This document shows positions 46,006 through 57,920 of a stretch of 64,000 nucleotides of DNA, piece after piece (within the stretch, counting starts at the first letter, position 1; each line of letters opens with the position of its first letter). Under the pieces are notes generated by a model. It saw nothing but the letters and a program-made list of their open reading frames with translations. It made no database searches and was not told the origin of the DNA. Location: the IMG/VR virus record IMGVR_UViG_3300011114_000961, positions 61,971 to 125,970 of that record; one strand, given 5' to 3'. The DNA is from a virus. Both the position numbers and the translations under genes were made by a program.

Positions 46006-46250
46006 TGGGCAAGCAAACTGAATACTTTGACAGCATTGGCTATCGACCCAAGTACTGGATCGGCGATCGTGTGTTTGGCCACTGGAACAAAATACCATTT
46101 GTGGGCAGTGTGGGCAACGACACTGTGATTGACAACACTGGCCCACGAATCTCAATACATTTAGATTTGCCAATTCAATTTGAACAAAAGATTCACCGCA
46201 TCATAGTGGTCCGTCACAAAGATATAAAAAAACTGGTTCCAATGGATTAG
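46005..46250 (+). CDS. Small phage protein, unknown
   Basis: 81 residues from the ATG at 46005. YWIGDRVFGHWNKIPFVGSVGNDTVI suggests a small SH3-like barrel, followed by ISIHLDLPIQFEQKIHRIIVVRHKDIKKL. No known motif. It ends TAG-TAA, which also forms part of the next late-type box. Confidence 0.55.
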   Translation: MGKQTEYFDSIGYRPKYWIGDRVFGHWNKIPFVGSVGNDTVIDNTGPRISIHLDLPIQFEQKIHRIIVVRHKDIKKLVPMD

Positions 46251-46256
46251 TAAATA
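46249..46256 (+). promoter_or_regulatory. T4-late-type promoter box (AGTAAATA)
   Basis: TAAATA lies 5 nt before the ATG at 46262. Confidence 0.5.
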
Positions 46257-46261
46257 ACAGT

Positions 46262-46453
46262 ATGAAAATTGACACAGCATACAACAATCAACTGCACAGG
46301 CTTCAAGACGTAAAACACGTGGACCAACAGCATCAGGAAAAAGTACAAGAAGCTGCTCGAGCAAAATTTCAACACCAGGTCGAAGAAGCCCATCGCATCG
46401 AAATCAATCGTCGCATGAATCGTCCAGGGCAAAACATTGATAAAATGGCCTAA
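46262..46453 (+). CDS. Small helical protein; in-frame zinc-ribbon tail after the stop
   Basis: 63 residues, one long charged coiled-coil-like helix (LHRLQDVKHVDQQHQEKVQEAARAKFQHQVEEAHRIEIN). After the TAA at 46451 the same frame stays open for 22 codons with FTCPECGCGRED, a zinc-ribbon-like half site, to TGA at 46520. Stop readthrough or a broken longer gene are both possible. Function unknown. Confidence 0.5.
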   Translation: MKIDTAYNNQLHRLQDVKHVDQQHQEKVQEAARAKFQHQVEEAHRIEINRRMNRPGQNIDKMA

Positions 46454-46541
46454 CGTCGTGACACATTCACTTGCCCAGAATGCGGTTGTGGTCGGGAAGA
46501 TTACGAAGAAATAATTATCTGATGAAAATTGCCGAAAACAA

Positions 46542-46570
46542 TTGCTTTTTTGTCAATAGGCATATATAAT
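46542..46570 (+). promoter_or_regulatory. Sigma70 promoter of a short transcript
   Basis: TTGCTT, 17 bp and TATAAT; the start would be near 46577. Confidence 0.65.
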
Positions 46571-46575
46571 ACACT

Positions 46576-46674
46576 ATGATTATGCAACAAGCCCAACTGT
46601 CCCGAGAGATACCCTCACTCAACTATGCGAGTGAGGCGCTGGATTATGACTTCAGCGGGCCTAGTGATATTTGA
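46576..46674 (+). CDS. 32-residue peptide or part of a small RNA
   Basis: MIMQQAQLSREIPSLNYASE... runs 32 codons in a unit with its own promoter and terminator, but the start lies at the transcription start and has no ribosome-binding site. The DNA also holds a perfect 8-bp hairpin (CCTCACTC/GAGTGAGG), so the product may be a roughly 150-nt RNA instead. Confidence 0.35.
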   Translation: MIMQQAQLSREIPSLNYASEALDYDFSGPSDI

Positions 46675-46696
46675 TACTACACAAATTTCACGAAAG

Positions 46697-46724
46697 ACCC
46701 GCCAACTAGGCGGGTTTTTTTTTG
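46697..46724 (+). terminator. Rho-independent terminator
   Basis: ACCCGCC/GGCGGGT with an AACTA loop and nine T. Confidence 0.92.
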
Positions 46725-46728
46725 GTGG

Positions 46729-46757
46729 TTGACCACTAATTGCCCAACTGCTACAAT
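46729..46757 (+). promoter_or_regulatory. Sigma70 promoter
   Basis: TTGACC, 17 bp and TACAAT. First of two tandem promoters for the structured RNA/tRNA region. A 12-bp hairpin (TTTGTAAAG.../...CTTTACAAA) lies in the leader at 46788-46820. Confidence 0.8.
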
Positions 46758-46825
46758 AGCGGCAAGTAGGGAAAAACAGCAAGATTTGTAAAGTCCTTCC
46801 AAATTGTAGGGCTTTACAAAACCGG

Positions 46826-46854
46826 TTGACCAGTATCGCACTTGGTGTTATACT
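46826..46854 (+). promoter_or_regulatory. Sigma70 promoter
   Basis: TTGACC, 17 bp and TATACT. Transcript start near 46861, upstream of element E1 and tRNA-Glu. Confidence 0.85.
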
Positions 46855-46949
46855 AGAGACTAGTTAGAAAGCAGCACAGTGCATCGACACAGTGCAGCAA
46901 GTTCGTTAAAAATTTGATTTTGTATAGTGTACTCAGATTCAGTTCTGAG

Positions 46950-47187
46950 CACTATATGTAAACACAATTATACAGGTTACCTACATCGTTAGGTGAGTGA
47001 TAGGATTATGGGTTTGAGCCCCGCCGTGGCTGGCTACTCCTCCACTTACAAGATGCTGAATCAGTGGCTTAGGCCATGAAGATGAGGAAGACGAAACAGG
47101 TAGGCAGTAATGACGGCGATTGGTCTAATCATAGCTAGATTAGATTTTATCAGCAAAGTTCCTGTATAATTGTGTTTTCATATAGTG
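46950..47187 (+). repeat. Stem-closed element E1 (largest member of the E family)
   Basis: The two ends (46950-46976 and 47161-47187) pair over 27 bp with one mismatch. The arms carry the family core TATATG-AAACACA and TGTGTTT-CATATA. Inside are hairpins ACCTA/TAGGT and TCTAATC/GATTAGA. No coding frame is evident. Just upstream, 46923-46956 can form a competing hairpin (TATAGTG...CACTATA) that uses the 5' arm, so two alternative folds exist. tRNA-Glu starts 7 bp downstream. Confidence 0.75.
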
Positions 47188-47193
47188 AATCAT

Positions 47194-47268
47194 GGAGCAT
47201 TCGTCTATCGGTTAGGACAGTGGGTTTTCAGTCCACTAAGAGCGGTTCGACTCCGCTATGCTCTACCA
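47194..47268 (+). tRNA. tRNA-Glu (TTC)
   Basis: Acceptor GGAGCAT/ATGCTCT, anticodon loop TTTTCAG, T-arm AGCGG/CCGCT, encoded CCA. Confidence 0.92.
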
Positions 47269-47308
47269 AGTTATGGAGAAGCGGGTGCTGCGGCATCTGT
47301 TATCCACC
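47268..47308 (+). repeat. Mini-hairpin repeat G, copy 1
   Basis: A 41-nt sequence with 39 identical bases at 48094-48134. It folds as TGGA/TCCA outer and GGTGC/GCATC inner pairs closed by a TGCG (UNCG-type) tetraloop and ends CCACC(A), like a miniature acceptor stem. The differences keep pairing (G-T to A-T) and the UNCG loop. Confidence 0.65.
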
Positions 47309-47311
47309 AAG

Positions 47312-47491
47312 TTTTGTAAGTGTAGATGTAGTGAAAGTAAGGCGTCGAAAACCTTATGAGGCAACGGTTCGAGTCCGGCAACATGGCAACTGCTAAGTAG
47401 CTACTATTACTACGTACCTCTATCCTGTCCGCGGCTTCACAGAAAATACAGGTAGAATGGTAGCAATGAGTGAGGTGCTGCTACTTACAAA
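47312..47491 (+). repeat. Stem-closed element F1
   Basis: The ends pair as TTTGTAAGT/ACTTACAAA. Inside are a TAAGG/CCTTA hairpin, a T-arm-like CGG-TTCGAGT-CCG, a CCTGT/ACAGG hairpin and a final GTAGCA/TGCTAC hairpin. A paralogue (F2) is at 48313. Non-coding. Confidence 0.65.
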
Positions 47492-47507
47492 TTCAATTTA
47501 TATGGTA

Positions 47508-47588
47508 TTATATAAAAACACATTTTGCTTTGGATGCGTGACAACTTTGTCGGATGCGTAGGGCTTACTAAAGTGTGTTCCTATATGG
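47508..47588 (+). repeat. Stem-closed element E2
   Basis: The 5' arm TATATAAAAACACATTTT pairs with the 3' arm AAAGTGTGTTCCTATATGG, with a 2x2 internal loop (AA/CC) between the TATA and AACACA helices. Same terminal-stem design as E1, E3, E4 and E5. Confidence 0.75.
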
Positions 47589-47639
47589 TAATGTTATCTG
47601 CAGGTAGCATCCGTGCTGGGGAGTAATTGCCCTCAGGAA

Positions 47640-47706
47640 CTCGCGGTCTTCTAGTGGTTAGGATGCCCTTAGTGGGTGATGCAGGTTCGAATCCTGTCCG
47701 CAATGA
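47640..47706 (+). other. tRNA-like domain with collapsed anticodon arm
   Basis: It has a Glu-like D-arm (TCTTCTAGTGGTTAGGAT) and a perfect T-arm (GCAGG-TTCGAAT-CCTGT). The acceptor is only GCGG/CCGC, extended by AACTC/GAGTT instead of a CCA end. The anticodon arm is reduced to GCCC-TTAGT-GGGT. Enclosed between E2 and E3. Not a functional tRNA in the usual sense. Confidence 0.6.
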
Positions 47707-47711
47707 GTTTG

Positions 47712-47824
47712 CCATATAAGAACATACTCCAGGTTGGGTTAGATTCGCGGTCTAACTATTTGGGTCTGTAGTGTAGCCCTCCAAAACTACACGTGACTAA
47801 GATACGTAGTGTGTTCCTATATGG
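47712..47824 (+). repeat. Stem-closed element E3
   Basis: CCATATAAGAACATACT pairs with AGTGTGTTCCTATATGG over 17 positions (one mismatch, one G-T). Confidence 0.75.
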
Positions 47825-48219
47825 TAAGAATCCCGTTACTACTTTCGTTAAAGTAGCGTTTGACTAGCGATAGAGGTCCGGTGGCAGAAGACCGTTAGCG
47901 GAGCAATCCTGAATCTGATAGGCAGTTATCTTTCTGCACACAGATACCAGATAAAAAAGATGGACAGAGTAACCGCTCAATCAAGGGCTGGTGTGGAAAC
48001 CAGTAGCTTGTCCTTATTTGGTCTCAAAGTGTTCATGGACGCACACAACACTGTCACTGTTGAAGAAGGGGATCGTTACCCCTTGAGACCGCCAAGTTAT
48101 GGAGAAGCGGATGCTACGGCATCTGTTATCCACCTTTTATGTGTGAGAGCCGGATTAGTGACGGTGCTGATGTATGTCAGTGAAAGGGTGAGCGAACCCA
48201 CCCCCACACACCAAGTTAT
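47825..48219 (+). ncRNA. Highly structured non-coding stretch
   Basis: No credible gene. Hairpins in order: CTACTTT/AAAGTAG (loop CGTT); CTGGT/ACCAG; GGTCTCAA/TTGAGACC, an 8-bp stem that encloses AAGGGG/CCCCTT; then the G2 repeat; then GTGTG/CACAC enclosing CTGA/TCAG and GGGT/ACCC. The density of exact stems indicates one or more structured RNAs on the transcript from 46861. Confidence 0.55.
48094..48134 (+). repeat. Mini-hairpin repeat G, copy 2
   Basis: Second copy of the 41-nt repeat, with GGATGC/GCATC and a TACG (UNCG-type) loop. Confidence 0.65.
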
Positions 48220-48310
48220 CTCTGAGTAGACGAATCGGTAAAGTCGTCCTTACTAGTAGGTCAAAAAGGTTCCAAAAACCTTGGTGGTTCAATTCCACTC
48301 TCAGAGGCCC
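48220..48310 (+). other. Class II tRNA-like gene, anticodon position CTA, atypical loop
   Basis: Perfect 7-bp acceptor CTCTGAG/CTCAGAG, a normal D-arm, a variable arm AAGG/CCTT and a T-arm with TTCAATT. The anticodon stem GTCCT/AGGTC has one mismatch and the loop is TACTAGT, so position 33 is A, not T, and the anticodon would be CTA (reads UAG). The 3' end is GCCC, not CCA. Probably a degenerate tRNA or decoy. Confidence 0.55.
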
Positions 48311-48312
48311 AG

Positions 48313-48529
48313 TTTTGTAAGTGTCAGCAAGAGAAAGTCACGCTATACTGTATTCTTCGAAGGTACTTTATAGTAGAAGGTTAATGGGTTCAACTCCCAC
48401 CCGCGGGCAACTGCGGAGGTCTGCAACGGAGACTGTACTGGACCTGTATCCCAAGTGACGTACCGAACCCCGCTCGAGCTTGTTAATTCGGGGGAATGGT
48501 AGCAATAGTGTGGTGCTACTACTTGCAAA
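48313..48529 (+). repeat. Stem-closed element F2
   Basis: The ends pair TTTGTAAGT/ACTTGCAAA. It shares with F1 the GTAGCA/TGCTAC terminal hairpin, a GGGTTCAACTCCC T-arm-like unit, a following GGCAACTG, and the AAATTCAAT end, but has CCCCG/CGGGG where F1 has CCTGT/ACAGG. Confidence 0.65.
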
Positions 48530-48539
48530 TTCAATATCA

Positions 48540-48615
48540 GCCCCGGTGATGTAACGGTAGCCATGTTGGTCTTAGAAACCAAATTCTGGGAGTTCGAGTC
48601 TCCCCTGGGGCACCA
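48540..48615 (+). tRNA. tRNA-Leu (TAG), short variable arm
   Basis: Acceptor GCCCCGG/CTGGGGC, anticodon loop CTTAGAA, T-arm GGGAG/CTCCC, encoded CCA. Leu by anticodon, yet it lacks the long variable arm usual for bacterial Leu tRNAs. Confidence 0.8.
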
Positions 48616-48624
48616 ATCAAAAAA

Positions 48625-48709
48625 GCGAGTGTGGCGTAATGGTAGCCGCATCAGACTTAAAATCTGAGGTCGTAATGGCGTGCCGGTTCGAGTCCGGCCA
48701 CTCGTACCA
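48625..48709 (+). tRNA. tRNA-Leu (TAA)
   Basis: Class II. Acceptor GCGAGTG/CACTCGT, loop CTTAAAA, long variable arm, T-arm GCCGG/CCGGC, encoded CCA. Confidence 0.92.
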
Positions 48710-48714
48710 ATTCA

Positions 48715-48806
48715 GGAAGATGATGCAGCGGGGATGGTCCTGCGACTGGCCTTGAAAACCAGGTTCTCTTAACAGGGATGGGGTTCGACTCCTCCGTCTT
48801 CCGCCA
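48715..48806 (+). tRNA. tRNA-Ser (TGA)
   Basis: Class II. Loop CTTGAAA closed by CTGG/CCAG, long variable arm, acceptor GGAAGA/TCTTCC, encoded CCA. Confidence 0.92.
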
Positions 48807-48822
48807 ATTTTACCAAAATCAG

Positions 48823-48851
48823 TTGACCACTAAAAACAATGGTGTTATACT
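48823..48851 (+). promoter_or_regulatory. Sigma70 promoter within the tRNA array
   Basis: TTGACC, 17 bp and TATACT, 14 bp before a tRNA-Met. Confidence 0.88.
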
Positions 48852-48865
48852 AGATAAATACATGC

Positions 48866-48944
48866 AGCGGAGTGGGGGAGTTCGGTCGTCCCCGGAAGTC
48901 TCATAAGCTTCAGATCGGTGGTTCAAATCCATCCTCCGCATCCA
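48866..48944 (+). tRNA. tRNA-Met (CAT), initiator-like features
   Basis: Loop CTCATAA. The first acceptor pair is A-A (mismatched), as initiators lack a 1-72 pair, and the T-loop is TTCAAAT as in initiators, but the three G-C pairs of the initiator anticodon stem are missing. Encoded CCA. Confidence 0.8.
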
Positions 48945-48955
48945 TTTTAACCTGT

Positions 48956-48971
48956 GTTGTATAAATACAAC
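48956..48971 (+). promoter_or_regulatory. Palindrome with TATAAATA core
   Basis: GTTGTAT-AA-ATACAAC is a perfect 7-bp palindrome containing the T4 late consensus TATAAATA. Confidence 0.4.
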
Positions 48972-48989
48972 ACAAGATATTTTAAGAGG

Positions 48990-49018
48990 TTGACTTCTTA
49001 AGATATATAACGTATAAT
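48990..49018 (+). promoter_or_regulatory. Sigma70 promoter
   Basis: TTGACT, 17 bp and TATAAT, 8 bp before the ATG at 49026. Confidence 0.85.
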
Positions 49019-49025
49019 TGATACT

Positions 49026-49151
49026 ATGAAAACGCAAATCTGTTCACTGTTGATTAAACCCATGCATCAGGCAAGTACCTGGGCGCGTGGCTATGGTCGC
49101 GTGAATACATTTCCAGGAGCCCGCGGGTCCTTGAGGAGTCATATACTGTAA
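49026..49151 (+). CDS. 41-residue basic peptide in its own transcription unit
   Basis: MKTQICSLLIKPMHQAS... ends in SLRSHIL; basic with several Gly and Arg. Promoter 8 bp upstream, terminator 27 bp downstream. The start is near the transcription start and has no clear ribosome-binding site, so the unit could also make a small RNA. Confidence 0.4.
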   Translation: MKTQICSLLIKPMHQASTWARGYGRVNTFPGARGSLRSHIL

Positions 49152-49177
49152 CAAGTATCAAGACATACCCAAAAGGA

Positions 49178-49205
49178 CCCCGGAACTAAAAACTCCGGGG
49201 TTTTT
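49178..49205 (+). terminator. Rho-independent terminator
   Basis: CCCCGGA/TCCGGGG with a 9-nt loop, followed by TTTTT. Confidence 0.92.
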
Positions 49206-49322
49206 CATTTTGTAGAGTTGAATAGTGTGAATAGGTAACGTGGACCTAGCCTGCACTTAAAACATGGGCAAACGGGCGGCCTCGGGGATGGCTTGTGTTC
49301 TTGTACATAAAAAAATCCGAGC

Positions 49323-49420
49323 GTATTAAAACAGATTGCGTATCCGTTGCTGGTCGCTTGACAGAAATGTTATTCCCACAGCATACATTCTGTTTTAATA
49401 CACACATTCGCAAGAGTGTG
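49323..49420 (+). other. Structured intergenic RNA before tRNA-Tyr
   Basis: GTATTAAAACAGA (49323) pairs perfectly with TCTGTTTTAATAC (49389) over 13 bp. A second hairpin CACAC/GTGTG with a GCAA-containing loop follows. Confidence 0.5.
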
Positions 49421-49430
49421 GAACAATTTT

Positions 49431-49513
49431 GGGGACATGGCAGGTGGTCGATTGCGACAGACTGTAAATCTGTTCTTAATAGCGCGGTGGTTCGAATCCA
49501 TCTGTCTCCACCA
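49431..49513 (+). tRNA. tRNA-Tyr (GTA)
   Basis: Class II. Acceptor GGGGACA/TGTCTCC, loop CTGTAAA, T-arm GGTGG/CCATC, encoded CCA. Confidence 0.92.
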
Positions 49514-49517
49514 GTTA

Positions 49518-49615
49518 TTGTATAGAGAGCTTCGATTACGGCACCTCTATACAAAACAACATAGAAGGCGTAATCCTAGTCTGCCCAGTAGCAGAGCGTC
49601 TATGTTGTGTTTTTT
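49518..49615 (+). other. Two tandem 10-bp hairpins, the second with a T tract
   Basis: TTGTATAGAG/CTCTATACAA (49518-49554) is followed by ACAACATAGA/TCTATGTTGT (49556-49608), and a T tract follows shortly after, as in a terminator. Confidence 0.6.
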
Positions 49616-49617
49616 TC

Positions 49618-49693
49618 GGGGGATTGGTATACTTGGCTAACACACCTGGTTTGCAACCAGGAGCAAACGGTTCGAATCCGTTATCCTCCACCA
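49618..49693 (+). tRNA. tRNA-Ala (TGC)
   Basis: Acceptor GGGGGAT/ATCCTCC, loop TTTGCAA, encoded CCA. Confidence 0.92.
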
Positions 49694-49700
49694 GTTTTGT

Positions 49701-49774
49701 TGGGACATTGTGTAATGGTAGCACAACAGACTTTGACTCTGTTAGCCTAGGTTCGATCCCTAGTGTCCCTGCCA
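49701..49774 (+). tRNA. tRNA-Gln (TTG)
   Basis: Loop CTTTGAC, T-arm CTAGG/CCTAG, acceptor GGGACA/TGTCCC with an open T-T end pair, as expected for weak U1-A72-type Gln tRNAs, encoded CCA. Confidence 0.9.
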
Positions 49775-49775
49775 A

Positions 49776-49851
49776 GCAACTTTAGCTGATGTGGTCATAG
49801 CGGCGGCCTGAAGAGCCGTTGAAGTAGGTTCGATTCCTACAGGTTGCACCA
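49776..49851 (+). tRNA. tRNA-Phe (GAA)
   Basis: Acceptor GCAACTT/AGGTTGC, loop CTGAAGA, encoded CCA. Confidence 0.92.
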
Positions 49852-49858
49852 ACAACAT

Positions 49859-49936
49859 GTAGCGGTGGCAGAGTGGCCCAATGCATGGGATTGCAAATCC
49901 CAAAAACCGTGAGTTCAAATCTCACCCGCTACTCCA
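49859..49936 (+). tRNA. tRNA-Cys (GCA)
   Basis: Acceptor GTAGCGG/CCGCTAC, loop TTGCAAA, discriminator T as in Cys tRNAs, encoded CCA. Confidence 0.92.
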
Positions 49937-49942
49937 AGTCAA

Positions 49943-49985
49943 GTCCATACAGCCCTTTGACGGCTTCGTCCCTGGACAGTTTTTT
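49943..49985 (+). terminator. Terminator-like structure between tRNAs
   Basis: GTCCA/TGGAC encloses AGCC/GGCT and is followed by six T. Confidence 0.55.
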
Positions 49986-50062
49986 ACCGCCTTGGCTCAA
50001 TTGGATAGAGCACTGGATTACGAATCCGGGGGTTGGGAGTTCGAATCTCTCAGGTGGTACCA
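49986..50062 (+). tRNA. tRNA-Arg (ACG)
   Basis: Acceptor ACCGCCT/AGGTGGT, loop TTACGAA; A34 would be edited to inosine by host TadA. Encoded CCA. Confidence 0.92.
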
Positions 50063-50072
50063 TTTGTTATAT

Positions 50073-50149
50073 GGTGTCTGTCGCCAAGTGGTTAAGGCCT
50101 CGGGTTGTGATTCCGACATGCGTGGGTTCGATCCCCATCAGACACCCCA
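50073..50149 (+). tRNA. tRNA-His (GTG)
   Basis: Has the extra G at -1 and C73 required by HisRS, loop TTGTGAT, encoded CCA. Confidence 0.93.
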
Positions 50150-50154
50150 GTTTT

Positions 50155-50229
50155 GGTTGTGTGACGTAGATGGATGCGTACCGCCCTCATAAGGCGAGGA
50201 GGTTGGATCGATGCCAACCACAACCACCA
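50155..50229 (+). tRNA. tRNA-Met (CAT), elongator
   Basis: Acceptor GGTTGTG/CACAACC, loop CTCATAA in CGCC/GGCG. The T-loop is ATCGATG, lacking T54. Encoded CCA. Confidence 0.82.
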
Positions 50230-50232
50230 TGT

Positions 50233-50306
50233 GTATCCATAGTGTAATGGCAGCATCGCGGTCTCCAAAACCGTCAGTCTAGGTTCGAGTCCTAGTGGGT
50301 ACGCCA
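50233..50306 (+). tRNA. tRNA-Trp (CCA)
   Basis: Acceptor GTATCCA/TGGGTAC, loop CTCCAAA, G73, encoded CCA. Confidence 0.92.
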
Positions 50307-50346
50307 AGTTTTTTATATGCTGTCGATACAGCATAAGTATTTTCAC

Positions 50347-50436
50347 GGAACGGTCCTATAATGGTATTAGAGCAGATTGCTAATCTGTCGCTCGGCGTAA
50401 TCCGGGTTCTGAGTTCGAGTCTCAGTCGTTCCGCCA
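50347..50436 (+). tRNA. tRNA-Ser (GCT)
   Basis: Class II. Acceptor GGAACGG/TCGTTCC, loop TTGCTAA, long variable arm, encoded CCA. Confidence 0.92.
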
Positions 50437-50443
50437 AGTTTAT

Positions 50444-50519
50444 TCCTCAGTAGCACAGCGGTAGTTGCACTTGACTGTTAATCAAGATGTCCGTGGTTCG
50501 ATCCCACGCTGAGGAGCCA
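50444..50519 (+). tRNA. tRNA-Asn (GTT)
   Basis: Acceptor TCCTCAG/CTGAGGA, loop CTGTTAA, encoded CCA. Confidence 0.93.
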
Positions 50520-50538
50520 ATTTAATTTAGGAAACAAA

Positions 50539-50703
50539 ATGTCATCATTTAACACAAGCAACGATCCCATGAAGCATCACAGTGGCAAACCCAGACTGGG
50601 ACCGCTGAATGTTGCTCAACTCACCAAGATGTTGGAGAGTGCCAGGCCCAAGCACCGAGCCAAGATTCAACGTGCTATAGACAAAAGATCAAAGACATCC
50701 TAA
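50539..50703 (+). CDS. 54-residue basic protein inside the tRNA array
   Basis: MSSFNTSNDPMKHHSGKPRL... ends in DKRSKTS; AGGAAACAAA upstream. The C-terminal half is a basic helix (LTKMLESARPKHRAKIQRAI), suggesting RNA or DNA contact. Sits between tRNA-Asn and tRNA-Thr with 7-19 bp gaps, so it shares their transcript. Function unknown. Confidence 0.6.
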   Translation: MSSFNTSNDPMKHHSGKPRLGPLNVAQLTKMLESARPKHRAKIQRAIDKRSKTS

Positions 50704-50710
50704 CAATCAC

Positions 50711-50784
50711 GCCCTACTAGTACAATGGCAGTACACTGGTTTTGTAATCCTGTGATGGCAGTTCGATTCTGTCGTGGGGCACCA
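50711..50784 (+). tRNA. tRNA-Thr (TGT)
   Basis: Acceptor GCCCTAC/GTGGGGC, loop TTTGTAA, encoded CCA. The anticodon stem has two mismatches, so it may be weakened. Confidence 0.75.
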
Positions 50785-50803
50785 ATTTTTCAAAGGAGAA
50801 CGT

Positions 50804-51064
50804 ATGGAACGATACAAACAACTAGTTCGCATCCAGCGTTGTATCCTGGGCGAAGTAGATCACGAAGTAACTGTTCGCAATATTGACGGCAACTATCACT
50901 GCCGTGTGTATGTCAACGGTGAACTCAATCAAGAAGCAGTATGCTTGAACAAGCGTGACATCAGTTACACTTGCCGTAGTATGTTGCGGTGGGAAGACAA
51001 GTGCGGCAACTTTAGCGAATTTGCTACTGCGGCTCGAGCTCGACTCAACAAAGAACACATTTAA
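50804..51064 (+). CDS. Small phage protein, unknown
   Basis: 86 residues from the ATG at 50804 with AAAGGAGAACGT upstream; it begins 19 bp after tRNA-Thr. Basic start (ERYKQLVRIQRCILGE), a beta hairpin (VRNIDGNYHCRVYVNGELNQ), then four further Cys (VCLNK, YTCRSM, DKCGNF), which could bind zinc or be incidental. No named family. Located in the tRNA array. Confidence 0.6.
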   Translation: MERYKQLVRIQRCILGEVDHEVTVRNIDGNYHCRVYVNGELNQEAVCLNKRDISYTCRSMLRWEDKCGNFSEFATAARARLNKEHI

Positions 51065-51158
51065 AAGGAAACATGACATGAAACGTGCTAAACGCTAGTG
51101 TCAATCCAGATCCCATGTAGGTCCGGGTTGGCACGTGAAAGACAATTTTACATACCAA

Positions 51159-51233
51159 CCCTCTAAGATGTTAAGGCAGCATGCCGGACTCTTAATCCGT
51201 GACGTCCGAGTTCAAATCTCGGTAGAGGGACCA
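51159..51233 (+). tRNA. tRNA-Lys (CTT)
   Basis: Acceptor CCCTCTA/TAGAGGG, loop CTCTTAA, encoded CCA. Confidence 0.92.
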
Positions 51234-51237
51234 ACAT

Positions 51238-51313
51238 GGGATCGTGGTGAAATGGTTATCACAGCGGACTTTTAATCCGCCAGTTCCCGGTTCGAATCCG
51301 GGCGGTCCTACCA
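51238..51313 (+). tRNA. tRNA-Lys (TTT)
   Basis: Acceptor GGGATCG/CGGTCCT with G-T pairs, loop CTTTTAA, encoded CCA, which is shared with the first bases of element E4. Confidence 0.92.
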
Positions 51314-51392
51314 TATAAAAACACATTACCTAGTAGTAGCGGCGTACCCGTGAGCTATTAGTAGTCCTGCAGGCTAGTGTGTTTCTATATGG
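51311..51392 (+). repeat. Stem-closed element E4
   Basis: CCATATAAAAACACAT pairs with AGTGTGTTTCTATATGG around a short internal loop. Its CCA is also the end of tRNA-Lys. Confidence 0.78.
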
Positions 51393-51403
51393 TAAAACTC
51401 AAG

Positions 51404-51432
51404 TTGACAAGGATCAACTTTGATGCTACAAT
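51404..51432 (+). promoter_or_regulatory. Strong sigma70 promoter of the large RNA
   Basis: TTGACA (consensus -35), 17 bp and TACAAT. No coding gene follows for over 1.1 kb. Confidence 0.9.
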
Positions 51433-51438
51433 AAGATT

Positions 51439-52330
51439 TCAAGGGCGGTTTAACGTCCTATAAGCCAGCTTGCTGGTTTATGAAGAATAACTGTGGTGAC
51501 ACAGCCAAAGGAGGTATGCCTACATAACTCCGCTAGAGATAGTTCGTTTAAGCAAGCCTGCTCACTACCGTGAGGTAGCGATCACTGATAAGACCGGTGG
51601 TTGTAACAATGACGCTGGATGTTGTGGAAAGAACGTTGATTTACAAGCCCGCAAGGGGAACTTGAGTCGATGGAAAGTAACAGGTGGTGCTGACTTCACA
51701 ACTAAACCAGTCCAGTTAATTAGTATGAGAAAGGGTAGCGTATTTGTCCGAGGGGTTGCACCCAAGGGCTCGTATGCAGTTTGAGTGGTTAGTGGGTCTG
51801 TCGAAAGGCGGGGACACACCGATCGCAAAAGACGACTGAGTAGTTCGCAAGACAAAAGGTACGTGGTGTGTTGTATTGTGTATTCCAAAAGAGTATGCAG
51901 CAACTGAGTCAGCACATCGCAGTAGGTTCAGTTATAGGCTAATGGTAGGCCGATTTCCTTTTAAGAAATAGACTGAAGGTTCAACTCCTTCTAACGATTA
52001 AAACGCAAAGACTGACTCGGTTGTATGTGAAAAGCATCTAATACTTGGCTCGCAAGAGAACCAAGTCTAATGAAGCTCGCAAGGTGACATTAGTTTATGC
52101 AGGAAGTTTCGTAAGGTGTTAGCGCACTTGAATGGCTCGCAAGGTCAACGGAATAGAAAGCGTAGAATAGCATACAGCGTCAAGACTACTGCCTGTCTCT
52201 AAACGGCGATGCTGACAGCAGACCAGGATACCTAGAAATAGGGCCGGGTGGAAGTCGGAAGAAAGTATACTCGCAAGGTGTACAATAATGTCCGAGGTGT
52301 TGTTGGAGAGGATGTATTCTCAGTCCTTTC
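51439..52330 (+). ncRNA. Large ornate non-coding RNA (GOLLD/ROOL-like candidate)
   Basis: About 890 nt without a credible gene but full of exact hairpins, many capped by GNRA loops: TAAGCCAG/CTGGTTTA (51461), CTGTG-GTGA-CACAG (51491), CTACC-GTGA-GGTAG (51565), CCC-GCAA-GGG (51648), CTTGG/CCAAG (52044), CTAATG/CATTAG (52067), GTATAC/GTGTAC with GCAA (52265). An 11-bp stem at 51902/52012 encloses a tRNA-like domain. Size, GNRA richness, location in a phage tRNA array and a private promoter match the GOLLD and ROOL giant RNAs. Membership in either class is not proved. Confidence 0.7.
51928..51998 (+). other. tRNA-Lys-like domain inside the large RNA
   Basis: D-arm GGCT-AATGGTA-GGCC, a perfect anticodon stem ATTTC/GAAAT with loop CTTTTAA (anticodon TTT) and T-arm GAAGG-TTCAACT-CCTTC. 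The acceptor has only 4 bp (GTTA/TAAC) and no CCA. It is carried on the 11-bp stem AACTGAGTCAG/CTGACTCGGTT. Confidence 0.75.
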
Positions 52331-52420
52331 ACCATATGCAAACACATTAGATACCTTTTAGCATACGTTCGCACGGCGCTCTTGTATGTTAGATTACTTT
52401 TAGTGTGTTTCCATATGGTT
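52331..52420 (+). repeat. Stem-closed element E5
   Basis: ACCATATGCAAACACATTA pairs with TAGTGTGTTTCCATATGGT; a C-C mismatch sits at the same place as the internal loops of E2-E4. It closes the downstream side of the large RNA. Confidence 0.78.
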
Positions 52421-52556
52421 ATCATATAAATGCTTTCTGTAGTAGCTACACTGGAACAACACCAACCTTCACTAGCCCGCGGCGTGTGAAGAAGTGCCAG
52501 GAAGAGCAGGGCTACCGTGGATTCAAGCGCCGCAGAGAGCACCTATATATTATCAT
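52421..52556 (+). other. Non-coding spacer with hairpins
   Basis: Contains CTTCAC/GTGAAG and GTAG/CTAC stems but no gene; it links E5 to tRNA-Ile. Confidence 0.4.
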
Positions 52557-52631
52557 GGCCGGTTAGCTCAGGGGGAGAGCATCGTCTTGATAAGGCGAGG
52601 GTCGATGGTTCGAAACCATCACCGGCTACCA
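52557..52631 (+). tRNA. tRNA-Ile (GAT)
   Basis: Acceptor GGCCGGT/ACCGGCT, loop TTGATAA, T-arm GATGG/CCATC, encoded CCA. Confidence 0.93.
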
Positions 52632-52645
52632 AAAGACAGTTCATT

Positions 52646-53542
52646 ATGATTTATACATTAGGATGTAGTTTTACAAAATGGTATTGGCATACCTGGAGCG
52701 ATTGGTTGAGCGAATATTCCACAGACACTGTTATCAACCTGGCCTGGCCCGGACGCAGCAATCAAACACAGTATTGGGAACTGTTGTCAAGATCAAAAGA
52801 TATCACCCAGGACGATACTGTGATCATCATGCTGAGTGGCAGCAATCGTGTCACAACATGGTACGACCAAGACTGGGTTGATCAGCACGATTGTCAAGGA
52901 TTCTTTCCAGCTGCTGGAAGACTAGAATGCTCTCCAGTGCCCTGGCGCGGATTATATCGCACACACCCTGATCACGAAACAAGTCTTACACACATGATCG
53001 TGGATAATTTTTCTACCATATACCAAATCCAACATCTGTTGAATCAGATTGGGTGTCGTTATCACATGGTGTTTTGGCAAAATCCTTGGTTTGATGTTAG
53101 GCCTACTGTGACCATTGATTCCTGGAAATATCGTTGGGATAGTTGCAATCAACTTTCCTCAATTGAATTGAACACTGCAAGTGAAATATTAAAGATTCCA
53201 GCAGTTTCCAATCTGTTGTCTCTTATTGACTGGAACCGGTTTTTTATGCCACCAAAGGATCCACAGGATCCAAAATCTTATCAAGGACTATGGGAGTACA
53301 AGACTGCTCGGCAGTGTACACAAGAATATTTAGAATGTGTACACTCTGACCCACATCCCGATGCACTGATTCAGCATGATTTCTTAGTTGAAATAATACT
53401 AGGGCAGTCATTGGAAAACAACAGCACCCGGGCACGAGCACGAGACTTGGCCCTCCTGTGTTTGTCTCATGATGTAAAGATATCGTATCAAGACTTGATA
53501 CCAATCTCAGCCCAAAACACTTTGAGAAAAATTTACGAATGA
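52646..53542 (+). CDS. SGNH-hydrolase-like phage protein
   Basis: 298 residues from the ATG at 52646, 14 nt after the tRNA-Ile CCA. It starts MIYTLGCSFTKWYWHTW with block I GCSFT, has NLAWPGRSNQTQ (block II-like), IIMLSGSNRV (block III-like with Asn) and HSDPHPDALIQHD near residue 255 (Asp-x-His). It closely parallels the gene at 36726. A C-terminal helical extension is unrecognised. Probable esterase on glycans; ATGA overlap with the sulfotransferase-like gene. Confidence 0.65.
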   Translation: MIYTLGCSFTKWYWHTWSDWLSEYSTDTVINLAWPGRSNQTQYWELLSRSKDITQDDTVIIMLSGSNRVTTWYDQDWVDQHDCQGFFPAAGRLECSPVPWRGLYRTHPDHETSLTHMIVDNFSTIYQIQHLLNQIGCRYHMVFWQNPWFDVRPTVTIDSWKYRWDSCNQLSSIELNTASEILKIPAVSNLLSLIDWNRFFMPPKDPQDPKSYQGLWEYKTARQCTQEYLECVHSDPHPDALIQHDFLVEIILGQSLENNSTRARARDLALLCLSHDVKISYQDLIPISAQNTLRKIYE

Positions 53543-54450
53543 AAAACGTTTTGTTAATTGCATCATTTGGATCAGGGTCTACTTATTTTCAAAGAGCAGC
53601 CACTTTCTGGATTAGAGAACTGATACAACCTAATCTTGTCAATCCGCATGAATTGCTAAATGGAATAGGTGTTGGGGAGCAAGGCTATTTGATAAAAAAA
53701 TGGGCCGACGTCAATACACAGAGTTTTGATGAGTTGTCTGGGTTGTTGTCATCCAGTGCTAATCCTGTACTGGTGCGATTGGCCTATGACCATTGGCTGA
53801 ATCGCAGCGAAACCAAATCACAACAAGAATTATTTACAGAATACTTACGCAATAATTTCACAGTGTTTGGTAGCATACGAGACAATATTTTTGATTATGC
53901 ATTGAGTTATGCTGTGCGACGCTGCACTGACCGCCCGGCATCACAGCAGATCAACAACGTACACAGTGCCAAAGATCGTGTGCGCTTGTATGGAGATAAA
54001 AGATTTGAAGTTGACACAGATATTGTTATACAACAATCACAACGATATCTCGACTATCGCAATTGGTTAAGTAACACATTTCCCGGATTTGTTCCGTTGT
54101 TGTACGAAGAGTTGTCAAGTGATATTGATGCAGTGCTGTGCCGATATTTTCCCACCCAACAAACAATCAAACAAAAATATGGCATCAGTATTGCCGAGTA
54201 CACACAGTACCATTATGAGATTAGCAAAAACATTGATCCAGAATTTGATGCAGACATGATTTCGGCCGTTGAGGCAATTGATAACACATTGTCAATCATG
54301 TGCAGTGATCAAGTCATGCTTGATACCATTCCTATCAAATCTACCACTCCGGCGGACAAGAGGCAGATTGTGATAAATTTTGTGCAGTGTGTTGATGCGT
54401 ACAATCGCTGGGCTAGAGATAACAATCTACCCGACTATTTGGAAAACTAA
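53539..54450 (+). CDS. Sulfotransferase-like protein
   Basis: 303 residues. The start VLLIASFGSGSTYFQRAATF has a 5'-PAPS-type P-loop (SFGSGSTYF), and FGSIRDNIFDYALSYAVRR fits the 3'-phosphate-binding R-D-x3-S-x3 region of sulfotransferases. LYEELSSDIDAVL resembles the acceptor-side segment. This is the clearest of the three sulfotransferase-like genes. Paired with an SGNH protein by ATGA overlap, so ester removal and sulfation of a common glycan is a possible theme. Confidence 0.65.
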   Translation: MKNVLLIASFGSGSTYFQRAATFWIRELIQPNLVNPHELLNGIGVGEQGYLIKKWADVNTQSFDELSGLLSSSANPVLVRLAYDHWLNRSETKSQQELFTEYLRNNFTVFGSIRDNIFDYALSYAVRRCTDRPASQQINNVHSAKDRVRLYGDKRFEVDTDIVIQQSQRYLDYRNWLSNTFPGFVPLLYEELSSDIDAVLCRYFPTQQTIKQKYGISIAEYTQYHYEISKNIDPEFDADMISAVEAIDNTLSIMCSDQVMLDTIPIKSTTPADKRQIVINFVQCVDAYNRWARDNNLPDYLEN

Positions 54451-54464
54451 TAATCAGATAGCAG

Positions 54465-54493
54465 TTGACAGGCAATATAAGTAAGTCTATAAT
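54465..54493 (+). promoter_or_regulatory. Sigma70 promoter
   Basis: TTGACA, 17 bp and TATAAT, 26 bp before tRNA-Gly. Confidence 0.92.
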
Positions 54494-54519
54494 GTAGATT
54501 GTCTAATATCAAAAAATAT

Positions 54520-54593
54520 GCGGGGTTCGTAAAATGGTATTACCTTAGCCTTCCAAGCTAAAGTCAGGAGTTCGATTCTCCTACCCCGCTCCA
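54520..54593 (+). tRNA. tRNA-Gly (TCC)
   Basis: Acceptor GCGGGGT/ACCCCGC, loop CTTCCAA, encoded CCA. Confidence 0.93.
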
Positions 54594-54597
54594 GTTT

Positions 54598-54700
54598 TAG
54601 GGAGTTGGCTTCTGTACAGAAAGTCGTTATGCCAACTTTAAACAACAAAGATCTCACGCACTCAACGATCGGAGAGGTTGTGCCCTAATTTTTACAAAGA
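54598..54700 (+). other. Structured spacer closed by TTAGGG/CCCTAA
   Basis: The outer stem is followed by a T tract; inside is GTTGGC/GCCAAC with a TTCTG/CAGAA arm. GGAGAG (54671) can also pair with CTCTCC (54701), giving an alternative fold that breaks the closing stem. Confidence 0.45.
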
Positions 54701-54752
54701 CTCTCCCTGACAGGCGGAGTATAATAGGAAAAGTTGTCTGTCACAAATTTTT

Positions 54753-54827
54753 GCCTGGTTAGCTCAGGGGGAGAGCATCTCGTTTACACCGAGAGGGTCC
54801 GCGGTTCGAAACCGTGACCAGGTACCA
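54753..54827 (+). tRNA. tRNA-Val (TAC)
   Basis: Acceptor GCCTGGT/ACCAGGT, loop TTTACAC, encoded CCA. Its last A is the first base of an ATG. Confidence 0.93.
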
Positions 54828-54832
54828 TGAAT

Positions 54833-55075
54833 ATGATTGAATACATAACAACATTTTTTGCCCTGTTCTGCATAGATATTTTTTACACATACTATCTAAG
54901 AGCAGTAGCAGATGGCCGGGCCATGCTTGCCAGCTCGTGGTCTGTGGTTGTTACTATTTTAGGAGCATTTGTGGTTATCAACTACACAACCGATCACATG
55001 TTACTGGTGCCAGCTGCATTGGGCGCATTCTGTGGCACGTTTGTGGGCATGAGATTGAAGAAGCAAGCAGAATAA
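54833..55075 (+). CDS. Small membrane protein
   Basis: 80 residues from the ATG at 54833; an in-frame ATG at 54827 shares its A with the tRNA-Val CCA and would be destroyed by tRNA processing. Three hydrophobic segments (TTFFALFCIDIFYTYYL, SSWSVVVTILGAFVVI, LLVPAALGAFCGTFVGM) and a basic tail suggest a three-pass inner-membrane protein. Placed between tRNA-Val and tRNA-Pro. Role unknown. Confidence 0.6.
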   Translation: MIEYITTFFALFCIDIFYTYYLRAVADGRAMLASSWSVVVTILGAFVVINYTTDHMLLVPAALGAFCGTFVGMRLKKQAE

Positions 55076-55077
55076 TT

Positions 55078-55154
55078 CGGAGTGTGGCGCAGTCTGGTAG
55101 CGCACCTGGTTTGGGACCAGGGGGTCCAAGGTTCGAATCCTTGTACTCCGACCA
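55078..55154 (+). tRNA. tRNA-Pro (TGG)
   Basis: C1-G72 acceptor (CGGAGTG/TACTCCG), loop TTTGGGA, encoded CCA. Confidence 0.93.
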
Positions 55155-55321
55155 AAGAGCAGCGTATGAGTTACATCATTCAGTATGAGTTGACAAGGTA
55201 GGTACCTAATCCTTGCAGCAGGCAATAGTACATACATCAATGTAACAGGTGAGCAGTGATCTGCTTCGTAGGGGATACCTCAAAGATGTTCTCCACCAAT
55301 TTTTTATAAGGAAGCAAGAGA
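55155..55321 (+). other. Non-coding spacer ending with a tRNA-like 3' sequence
   Basis: Contains the hairpin AGCAG-TGAT-CTGCT and ends CTCCACCA before the parvulin ribosome-binding site. No complete cloverleaf could be drawn; perhaps a tRNA remnant. Confidence 0.3.
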
Positions 55322-55585
55322 ATGAAAGCAAGTCACATTTTGGTAAAAACACTCAACGAAGCGGTGTCACTGAAAAACAAACTAAATGAAGGTGCAAGTT
55401 TTGCCGACCTGGCACGAGCACACAGCACATGCCCCAGTGGCGAACGCGGTGGAGACCTTGGCGAGTTTGGATCAGGACAGATGGTCCGACCATTTGAAGA
55501 TGCCACCTTGGCAACTGCTGTGGGTTCAATCAGCCAACCTGTGCAAACGCAGTTTGGTTACCATTTGATACATCGCACTGGTTAA
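55322..55585 (+). CDS. Parvulin-type peptidyl-prolyl isomerase
   Basis: 87 residues, the size of free-standing parvulin (PpiC). [14 protein letters not shown] is the first strand with its His, [24 protein letters not shown] is the classical active-site region, and [16 protein letters not shown] is the C-terminal signature with the second His. It catalyses cis-trans isomerisation of prolyl bonds and could help fold virion proteins. AAGGAAGCAAGAG upstream. Located between tRNA genes. Confidence 0.9.
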
Positions 55586-55590
55586 TACAT

Positions 55591-55682
55591 ACCAGCGAGA
55601 CTTGGGAGTCAGAGAGGTCTTATAAGCCTTTTAGCGCCAGATTAGCGTTCTTGAGAGAGTTCGATCCTCTCCGCTGGTACCA
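55591..55682 (+). tRNA. Class II tRNA with anticodon TAT (Ile by anticodon)
   Basis: Acceptor ACCAGCG/CGCTGGT, encoded CCA, T-arm GAGAG/CTCTC, variable arm GCGC/GCGT. The anticodon loop CTTATAA gives TAT (Ile AUA), which does not fit a long variable arm. The D-loop is very short. Identity uncertain. Confidence 0.65.
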
Positions 55683-55686
55683 ATTT

Positions 55687-55761
55687 GGATGTGTAGCACA
55701 GTGGTAGTGCATCAGCTCGACATGCTGAGGGTCACAGGTTCGAGCCCTGTCTCATCCACCA
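55687..55761 (+). tRNA. tRNA-Val (GAC) with C33
   Basis: The anticodon stem TCAGC/GCTGA is perfect, but the loop is TCGACAT, with C instead of the universal T33. The acceptor has one T-T mismatch. The GGGTC variable loop fits Val. Encoded CCA. Confidence 0.7.
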
Positions 55762-55768
55762 AGAATAT

Positions 55769-55847
55769 GCCCCGGTGGACAAATCTGGCAAAGTCGCTTC
55801 TCTCAAAAGGAAGAGTTCTGCGAGTTCGACTCTCGCCCGGGGTACCA
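55769..55847 (+). tRNA. tRNA-Leu (CAA), short variable arm
   Basis: Acceptor GCCCCGG/CCGGGGT, loop CTCAAAA, T-arm GCGAG/CTCGC, encoded CCA. The class I shape is unusual for Leu. Confidence 0.8.
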
Positions 55848-55872
55848 AACAATTTAAAAGAAAGGACAAGCT

Positions 55873-56301
55873 ATGAGTGAATTTAATGTATTAGTAGGCA
55901 AGCGCATCAATGGCTTGTTCATAGGTAACGACAAGTGGAGCCTGGTGTTTCGTGACATCTCTGGGCGTCGCTATCGTTTTGACACTGAAAATGACTGCTG
56001 CAATTCTGTATGGTTCAACCATGTGACTGGCGTAAATATCTTAGGCGAGGGCAACAGCTTTGACCTGTTGCGCGGGGTAGAAGTGCTGGCTGTGGAGGAC
56101 AAGGGCTGGGGCGACAATCGCAGCGACGAAGATGGATGCGAAGTGGTACAAGATGCGTTCTGGACTATCCGCACCAACCGTGGCTACATTGACCTTGAAG
56201 TGCGTAACAGCCACAACGGTTATTATGGTGGTAGCGTAAGGTACAACAAAGAAGATTCAGGACGGTTAACTGATTTAGAATTGATCACCGAGGACTTCTA
56301 A
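55873..56301 (+). CDS. Phage protein, unknown (beta-rich)
   Basis: 142 residues with GAAAGGACAAGC upstream. Beta-rich: LVGKRINGLFIGNDKWSLVF, GRRYRFDTENDCCNS, VNILGEGNSFDLLRGVEVLAVED, and FWTIRTNRGYIDLEVRNSHNGYYGGSV. It looks like a single-domain protein seen repeatedly in phages, which I cannot name with certainty. No catalytic motif. Next to a YkuK-like gene. Confidence 0.6.
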   Translation: MSEFNVLVGKRINGLFIGNDKWSLVFRDISGRRYRFDTENDCCNSVWFNHVTGVNILGEGNSFDLLRGVEVLAVEDKGWGDNRSDEDGCEVVQDAFWTIRTNRGYIDLEVRNSHNGYYGGSVRYNKEDSGRLTDLELITEDF

Positions 56302-56315
56302 CCTAGAAGAAACTT

Positions 56316-56786
56316 ATGAAAAAATTAGATTTAAAACAAGTGTCTGAATTTATTCAAGCACAAACACCAGAAACACGTATCTACATTGGTTGCGACAGTG
56401 AAAGAATCAAGATCGATGGTGAATGGTGGGCCGACTATGTGTTGGCCATTGTGGTACACATCAACGGCAACAACGGATGCAAACTGTTTGGTGAAGTACA
56501 TCGCGAACGTGTGTACGACGCAAAGCCAGGCAAGCCAGCCATGCGTCTCATGACCGAAGTGTACAAGGTGTCCGAACTGTATCTCAAACTGGCCGACGTG
56601 CTGGAAGGTCGTGATGTTGAAGTACATCTTGACATCAACCCAGACGAAATGCACGGATCCAGCTGTGTTATTTCACAGGCCATTGGCTACATCAAAGGCA
56701 CTTGCAACGTGATACCTTTTGTGAAGCCACAGGCATTTGCTGCTTCGTATGCTGCTGACCGACTGAAAGGTTTGAAAGCAGCCTGA
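56316..56786 (+). CDS. YkuK-like RNase H-fold protein
   Basis: 156 residues. RIYIGCDSERIKIDGEWWADYVLAIVVHING gives the first acidic strand of the RNase H-like fold, VEVHLDINPDEMHGSSCVISQAIGYIKG a second Asp-bearing strand, and VKPQAFAASYAADRL the C-terminal Asp region. This matches what I recall of YkuK/DUF458. A nuclease role is likely but unproved. Ends 9 bp before the next promoter. Confidence 0.75.
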   Translation: MKKLDLKQVSEFIQAQTPETRIYIGCDSERIKIDGEWWADYVLAIVVHINGNNGCKLFGEVHRERVYDAKPGKPAMRLMTEVYKVSELYLKLADVLEGRDVEVHLDINPDEMHGSSCVISQAIGYIKGTCNVIPFVKPQAFAASYAADRLKGLKAA

Positions 56787-56795
56787 CCAAAACAG

Positions 56796-56824
56796 TTGAC
56801 AGCGTTGACTGTTTTGTGTAAAAT
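56796..56824 (+). promoter_or_regulatory. Sigma70 promoter
   Basis: TTGACA, 17 bp and TAAAAT. It precedes a long leader before the ATG at 57114. Confidence 0.75.
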
Positions 56825-56830
56825 AGTTTT

Positions 56831-57113
56831 TGTCAGTGCAAACTGGCAGGCAAGATCAGGATAGATTAGAACAGACAAACTGTTGGCTTCATGCCAGCAT
56901 CGGCTTCCAAAGCTGAATTAACTCTGACCTCCAAGGCAACTTGGATCGTGCTTGTGTGAACCGGACATATTATAGACATTTGCACTTTGATAACCGGGCA
57001 TACGCAGGCCACTGTGGATTGTGCATTGTATTTTGAGCATTGCGAATTGCATAGTCTGTGACTTGATTCGGGTCTTGCCACCCTTGTTGTTTTATTGTTG
57101 AAAGAAAGAAATT
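56831..57113 (+). other. Long untranslated leader
   Basis: About 280 nt without a coding frame between promoter and gene. I see no exact long stems, but the length suggests regulation or a small RNA. Confidence 0.4.
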
Positions 57114-57686
57114 ATGAAAATCAATCTACGCAAAGCCAATGCATTACAATTGGCCATCCAGGATGCATTAAAAGGCATCAAATTTGACACCGAAGTCAAA
57201 GTCAACGAATTCCAAATTGCCGAAGATGCAATTGCAAAATTACGCCTAGATTTTGTGGCCAAACAAGATCGTCAGACCAGTTTGTTAAACAGCCTGTACG
57301 ATATCCGCAAGTCTGTGAGCCGCGCCAATCATCAGGCCAACATCAATGACAAGTTGGCAGATATTGCATCGCTTGAAAAGAAAATACAGTTTTATCTAGA
57401 CATGTCTGGTAAAAGTGTTCGTGAAAGTGTAGAGGTTGTGGCTGGTAAATTAGAAAAACTTCGCAATCGCAAAGACGAAGGTCGCAGCCTGTACTACGGT
57501 CACGATTCCACAGTAGACACTTCTATATTCACTGCCGAAGACCTGGCTGGTTTCCGAACTGCGGTTGTGCTAGGCAAGAAGAACAAACAAAAATTACAAG
57601 ACGAATTGTTGGATCTCAATGTGCGTACCGAAATTGAGCTTGGGCAAGACATAGTCAATGTGTTGACTGCTGAAGGGTTATTGTAA
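57114..57686 (+). CDS. Coiled-coil phage protein, unknown
   Basis: 190 residues; GAAAGAAAGAAATT upstream. Helical throughout: ALQLAIQDALKGIKF, EDAIAKLRLDFVAKQDRQTSLLNSLYDI, INDKLADIASLEKKIQFYLDM, then FTAEDLAGFRTAVVLGKKNKQKLQDELLDLN. Coiled-coil dimer likely. No motif. Its long leader and own promoter suggest controlled early expression. Confidence 0.6.
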   Translation: MKINLRKANALQLAIQDALKGIKFDTEVKVNEFQIAEDAIAKLRLDFVAKQDRQTSLLNSLYDIRKSVSRANHQANINDKLADIASLEKKIQFYLDMSGKSVRESVEVVAGKLEKLRNRKDEGRSLYYGHDSTVDTSIFTAEDLAGFRTAVVLGKKNKQKLQDELLDLNVRTEIELGQDIVNVLTAEGLL

Positions 57687-57696
57687 TAGAAATTTT

Positions 57697-57771
57697 GCGG
57701 GATTAGCTCAGTGGTAGAGCGAAACGTTGCCAACGTTTAGGCCATCGGTTCGAACCCGATATTCCGCTCCA
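57697..57771 (+). tRNA. tRNA-Gly (GCC)
   Basis: Acceptor GCGGGAT/ATTCCGC, loop TTGCCAA, encoded CCA. Confidence 0.93.
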
Positions 57772-57781
57772 GACAACACGG

Positions 57782-57837
57782 CCCTGCCCTCTGGCTTGTG
57801 ACCTCTTTTAATGTCACTAGACACGGCAGGGTTTTTC
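57782..57837 (+). terminator. Terminator with nested hairpin
   Basis: CCCTGCC/GGCAGGG closes a loop containing GTGAC/GTCAC and is followed by TTTTT. Confidence 0.85.
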
Positions 57838-57842
57838 TATTT

Positions 57843-57916
57843 GCTCCTATAGTTAAATGGCAGAACACATCCTTGGTAAGGATGAGATACAAGTTCGATT
57901 CTTGTTAGGAGCACCA
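57843..57916 (+). tRNA. tRNA-Thr (GGT)
   Basis: Acceptor GCTCCTA/TAGGAGC, loop TTGGTAA, encoded CCA. Confidence 0.93.
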
Positions 57917-57920
57917 ATCT

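Follow-up and report, generated by a model that had tools for sequence, protein, structure and literature searches.

We analyzed a 64,000-nucleotide (nt) stretch of DNA (hereinafter the window), namely bases 61,971–125,970 of a 126-kb IMG/VR virus record (IMGVR_UViG_3300011114_000961) of a freshwater phage, with sequence comparison as the basis of all results. Within an array of transfer RNA (tRNA) genes, the window carries a large non-coding RNA that proved to be GOLLD, composed of a 5′ domain whose pairs covary, a conserved 3′ domain, and a tRNA-like domain in its linker (Table 1). This tRNA-like domain keeps the elbow and the anticodon arm of a tRNA, with its acceptor stem fixed at 4 base pairs (bp) and devoid of a CCA end. 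To our knowledge, GOLLD has no known function, though its cage structure has been solved. What is called as a tRNA in the GOLLD linker is a shortened mimic, conserved among relatives and constrained in its anticodon loop, and with it the vague notion of a cage perhaps holding tRNAs gives way to specific questions, namely whether the domain leaves the RNA, which partner its anticodon arm binds, and whether it affords the phage protection from anticodon nucleases.

Table 1. Features of the GOLLD locus, in positions of the window.
Feature	Positions	Strand	Evidence
Second hairpin cassette copy (other insert), 5′ of the promoter	51309–51394	+	
Sigma-70-type promoter, TTGACA-N17-TACAAT	51404–51432	+	Sequence; fixed-distance promoters in relatives
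GOLLD RNA gene, ~890 nt	51440–52330	+	Rfam match; alignment of relatives
GOLLD 5′ domain, beyond the Rfam model	51442–51861	+	Alignment of 59 relatives
GOLLD conserved 3′ domain, matching Rfam RF02032 at 202.4 bits	51863–52326	+	
tRNA-like domain in the GOLLD linker, ARAGORN tRNA-Lys UUU	51928–51999	+	ARAGORN; Rfam; comparison with 79 relatives
3′ hairpin cassette adjoining GOLLD, 19-bp stem, structured insert	52331–52419	+	

Identity and extent of the GOLLD RNA

An initial annotation of this DNA, made from the sequence alone, had suggested a giant RNA of the GOLLD or ROOL kind, perhaps a new member, perhaps a new class, and had proposed a search with the Rfam models. In that search, the GOLLD model matched end to end (model positions 1–416 of 416), well above its gathering cut-off of 150 bits, whereas ROOL found no match in the region, be it at the gathering score or at E values up to 1. 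The full-model match bears out the GOLLD part of the suggestion; the ROOL and new-class parts fell away. Further, the length of the RNA and its second, less conserved, structured 5′ domain are those of a GOLLD, as is its location in a phage, in this case in a tRNA island such as those in which GOLLDs of phages and prophages often lie. Thus, the RNA is GOLLD with near certainty, and it adds a real member to this known class rather than constituting a class of its own. The notion of a class unrelated to GOLLD, or of ROOL, could draw on the Rfam GOLLD model covering only the 3′ half of the RNA, but it is refuted by the match itself and has a practically negligible probability. We placed the 5′ end of the gene by the promoter and its 3′ end where the Rfam model and the conserved alignment stop.

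We then collected relatives by three pattern scans of IMG/VR, filtered by a profile built from the first ten relatives; the first, loose pattern returned mostly chance matches, which the profile separated. The subfamily so defined comprises about 110 loci in IMG/VR, 97 of them nearly full length, of which 74 are less than 93% identical. All 26 records of relatives that were tested, on contigs of up to 424 kb, exceeded the Rfam GOLLD cut-off. In the largest of these (L193, 424 kb), the strong match is accompanied by another, weak GOLLD-like one (40 bits; bases 167,864–168,218). Cultured phages carrying GOLLD include Sinorhizobium phage Phosso, Xanthomonas phage X1, Acinetobacter phage Herod, and Mycobacterium phage Weiss13.

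The convincing evidence for a structured RNA is comparative, rather than being the folding energy of the single sequence, which is only mildly unusual (z = −2.1; 20 shuffles). For the 5′ domain, RNAalifold predicted 112 pairs from 59 relatives, with at least one double-sided change in 80 of them. The region of about 890 nt had been described as lacking a credible gene, and indeed contains no supported open reading frame; since, in addition, RNA pairs covary and the relatives differ by many insertions and deletions, it is non-coding. A want of covariation or a conserved coding frame had been named as grounds against the initial proposal: covariation is present among the relatives, and a conserved coding frame was not found. 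The hairpins claimed for this RNA fared unevenly. GNRA loops are enriched, with six hairpins of at least three perfect pairs against 0.58 expected and three of at least four pairs against 0.14 expected, whereas the count of perfect hairpins of at least 5 bp is ordinary (4 versus 4.4 in shuffles).

The near-consensus promoter is present exactly as first claimed, with TTGACA at 51404–51409, TACAAT at 51427–51432, and a spacer of 17 nt; promoter scores of at least 10 arise in about 0.6% of shuffles. A similar promoter stands at a fixed distance in 17–19 of 60 relatives, with about 11 nt between the end of the −10 box and the RNA. In the upstream flanks of these 60 relatives, about one third of the GOLLDs have their own promoter, and in several others the RNA is immediately preceded by an upstream hairpin's right arm, a distribution that suggests that the GOLLD 5′ end may be made in two ways.

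A shortened tRNA-like domain in the linker

The tRNA-like domain consists of a 4-bp acceptor (GUUA/UAAC), U8 and A9, a D arm, an anticodon arm with UUU, and a T arm. The Rfam tRNA model matches it over model positions 4–67 of 71 only, and, folded alone, it forms a cloverleaf with the same 4-bp acceptor. Judged as a functional tRNA, it has the three arms and the elbow, and lacks the 7-bp acceptor and the encoded CCA. We compared 79 distinct sequences of the domain, aligned by sequence only, so that a tRNA-like structure was not favored by the alignment. Across them, 98.7% of the cells of 18 pairs are paired, 16 of the 18 pairs show double changes, and the covariation score is 0.70 versus 0.21 for shuffled alignments. 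Strong covariation marks the D, anticodon, and T arms, and the elbow nucleotides (U8, A9, the GG of the D-loop, and the UUC of the T-loop) are kept.

The acceptor stem departs from this conservation in a precise manner. Its positions 7, 6, 5, and 4 are paired in 100, 100, 99, and 96% of the 79 relatives, with pair types exchanged among them (e.g., GUUA/UAAC, GAUA/UAUC, UAAG/CUUA, and AAUG/CAUU), whereas positions 3, 2, and 1 are paired in 48, 52, and 38%, which is the shuffled level. As U8–A9 directly follows the 4-bp acceptor, what has been lost from a normal acceptor is precisely its three outermost pairs. An encoded CCA is found in just one of the 79 domains, as against 1436 of 1533 ordinary tRNAs on the same contigs, 1216 of which have all seven acceptor pairs. 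Among 17 other GOLLDs that we scanned for a tRNA-like domain, inspection by eye found shortened versions with acceptors of 4–5 bp (L030 and L151) or 3 bp (Phosso and L091), and with none at all in Weiss13; hence, the shortening is not confined to one lineage.

Most of the anticodon loop, in contrast to the stems, is conserved: A38 is found in 100%, U33 in 95%, U36 in 94%, A37 in 92%, and U35 in 84% of the 79 sequences, and variation within the loop is greatest at position 34. The readable anticodons are of the NUU type in 86 of 89 cases (GUU 56, UUU 17, CUU 11, and AUU 2, with three others). On a tree built from the rest of the RNA with the linker left out, the 67 rows show at least 23 changes of the anticodon. 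Such a conserved loop suggests that something reads it. We also considered whether the genuine Lys and Asn tRNAs carry altered, "resistant" loops and the mimic normal ones, and rejected this pattern, the loops being identical.

Retention in the cage and candidate readers of the anticodon loop

In the GOLLD RNA env-38, the two domains form the cap and the ring of a 14-mer cage with the linker in its lumen, and GOLLD linkers are known to contain tRNAs at times (PMC12286853). In Mycobacterium, the GOLLD RNA is visible on Northern blots but its embedded "pseudo tRNA" is not (PMC6582537), which fits an unreleased domain. Taken together with the missing acceptor end, this result argues for a domain retained in the cage. 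Thus, the tRNA-like domain is very probably a retained mimic and not an excised tRNA, and the description of the whole as a GOLLD with a retained tRNA mimic, whatever reads it, is likely to hold.

As for its role, the domain seems to be made for staying in the cage RNA as a bait or a dock. By analogy with env-38 (PMC12286853), the RNA would assemble into a hollow 14-mer cage, with the linker and the tRNA-like domain facing the lumen. Because the tRNA ends are missing, the domain would not be cut out, and it would stay uncut and unchargeable within the cage, where a reader of the anticodon loop could encounter as many as 14 anticodon arms, all of the NUU (Asn/Lys) type. Our first choice of reader would be a host anticodon nuclease or a similar tRNA-targeting defense enzyme, baited or trapped during infection, and our next choice a ribosome or a tRNA-modifying enzyme, as a docking partner. 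Host anticodon nucleases, with tRNA-Lys and other tRNAs among their targets, are known phage defenses: PrrC cleaves tRNA-Lys(UUU) (PMC10264068) and AriB of PARIS cleaves tRNA-Lys (PMC11455837). That the domain baits such an enzyme is a tentative reading, possible though short of probable. In its fullest form, a large freshwater phage lineage would have turned the linker into a multi-copy, unchargeable, unreleased mimic that baits host enzymes reading Lys/Asn anticodon loops, switching the anticodon (GUU, UUU, and CUU) to follow the defenses. We regard this full scenario as unlikely; if true, it would make GOLLD an RNA counter-defense device.

Several observations weigh against the retained mimic and its proposed role. 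First, in its anticodon loop the mimic does not differ from the ordinary tRNAs for Lys and Asn that these phages encode; hence, the loop alone is no pointer to a bait, and it may be merely inherited. Second, the number of anticodon changes may be inflated by recombination between phages. Third, GOLLDs with a short A+U-rich linker and without a tRNA-like domain occur in Acinetobacter phage Herod, two 0.6-Mb phages, and several IMG/VR contigs, so the domain is dispensable for the general role of GOLLD. Fourth, the acceptor of some relatives can be extended to 8 pairs by weak, G–U-rich pairing. Finally, no T4-type RNA ligase, which would have lent support to the bait, was detected in the 26 records of relatives, in a search whose positive control was silent too.

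The first and third of these points are equally what one would expect if the domain were merely a compact spacer or folding nucleus in the linker, with an anticodon that plays no role, and the disordered linker of the solved relative (PMC12286853) points the same way. Such a spacer needs no kept loop, yet U33, U36, A37, and A38 are held at 92–100% while the stems and position 34 vary, and we consider it conceivable but not probable. We are more doubtful of a docking role, in which the domain would link the cage with the ribosome or with an enzyme that modifies tRNAs, such as the t6A37 machinery. The near-universal U36–A37–A38 would suit it, as would the pull-down of ribosomes by GOLLD, for which PMC12286853 cites another work; however, the same data fit a nuclease bait equally, and a whole ribosome could hardly contact a lumen-facing domain unless the cage opens. 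Lastly, although ARAGORN and Rfam each call a tRNA, an ordinary phage tRNA-Lys gene excised from the GOLLD transcript is highly improbable in view of the four conserved acceptor pairs with positions 1–3 at chance level, the missing CCA, the complete acceptors and CCA ends of the ordinary tRNAs of the same contigs, and the lack of any such product on the Mycobacterium Northern blot (PMC6582537).

Flanking elements and comparison with known systems

Two copies of a hairpin cassette flank the GOLLD gene; these, like the tRNA-like domain, had been missed in the initial annotation. The cassette stem is 19 bp long and contains a single internal mismatch, which is conserved; its inner arms are AAACACATT/AGTGTGTTT, and the folds are more stable than those of shuffles (z = −8.1 for the 3′ copy and −4.9 for the upstream copy). 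Across the phage group, to which the cassette is specific, a conserved stem of 17–19 bp encloses exchangeable structured inserts, and identical inserts are found inside different outer stems. All 175 copies that we counted belong to GOLLD loci, 126 in number, whereas 230 other loci contain none; most relatives have the hairpin after GOLLD, and 91 of the copies follow GOLLD immediately and in its orientation. Among 29 distinct arm pairs of the relatives, 95% of positions are paired versus 83% in shuffles, with 56 versus 15 double-change cells, an upper estimate of compensation because the copies were chosen for pairing. A hairpin resembling the T-arm of tRNAs occurs in 11 of 132 distinct inserts versus 1% of shuffles. 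Some relatives without the hairpin (L133 and L303) have, as judged by eye, an intrinsic terminator in its place. We tentatively read the cassette, a further element of phage tRNA arrays outside all Rfam families, none of which matched it, as a putative signal for 3′ processing or for the 3′ end, and at the same time as an exchangeable unit. A closing helix between the arms flanking GOLLD was rejected, the RNA's own flanks (−9.4 kcal/mol) pairing no better than flanks swapped between relatives (−9.2 kcal/mol).

The surrounding tRNA array (43348–58072) holds 34 tRNA calls and a transfer-messenger RNA (tmRNA) according to ARAGORN and Rfam scans of the window, which also encodes a phage DNA polymerase (PHROG 262). 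The phage-encoded tmRNA (44532–44894, alternatively 44532–44923; tag ANDELFALAA) is permuted and of the betaproteobacterial type, and thereby points to a betaproteobacterial host. An ARAGORN call with the anticodon CUA (48219–48311, labeled Pyl), not in the Rfam listing, is a possible amber suppressor. Closer to GOLLD, a short conserved element (51066–51158), with similar versions in 22 further GOLLD-bearing loci, lies upstream of a tRNA-Lys(CUU) that is embraced by inverted arms at 51109–51124 and 51228–51243. Beyond the 3′ cassette, a conserved non-coding element (52420–52556) lies between that hairpin and a tRNA-Ile; an Rfam scan gave no match for it, and nhmmer recovered it in five more GOLLD-bearing phage loci (L302, L317, L258, L226, and L284).

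Among known systems, YrlA is a non-coding RNA with a tRNA mimic that does not serve as a tRNA. It resembles the RNA described here in bearing such a mimic, but is otherwise unrelated, with no Rfam YrlA match in the window; the mimicry of tRNAs by this bacterial Y RNA is stated in a paper title cited in PMC9569102. ROOL, too, is a large cage-forming RNA found near phage tRNA islands (PMC12286853), and differs in that its Rfam model does not match the region. The closest structural precedent is env-38, with which the window GOLLD shares the conserved 3′ domain, a separate variable 5′ domain, a linker, a length of about 830–890 nt, and the setting of a phage tRNA array. It differs from env-38, whose linker (nucleotides 497–538) is disordered and without a tRNA-like domain, by possessing this domain and by the exchangeable hairpin cassette that follows the gene. 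The Mycobacterium GOLLD (PMC6582537) likewise has a tRNA-like element within GOLLD in a phage-derived tRNA cluster, and in Mycobacterium phage Weiss13 the acceptor stem is wholly absent. Here, by contrast, the 4-bp shortening is conserved and covaries across 79 distinct relatives and the NUU loop is conserved; on these alignments, and with no priority claimed for the shortened acceptor as such, the linker domain appears to be more specific than in the publications cited here.
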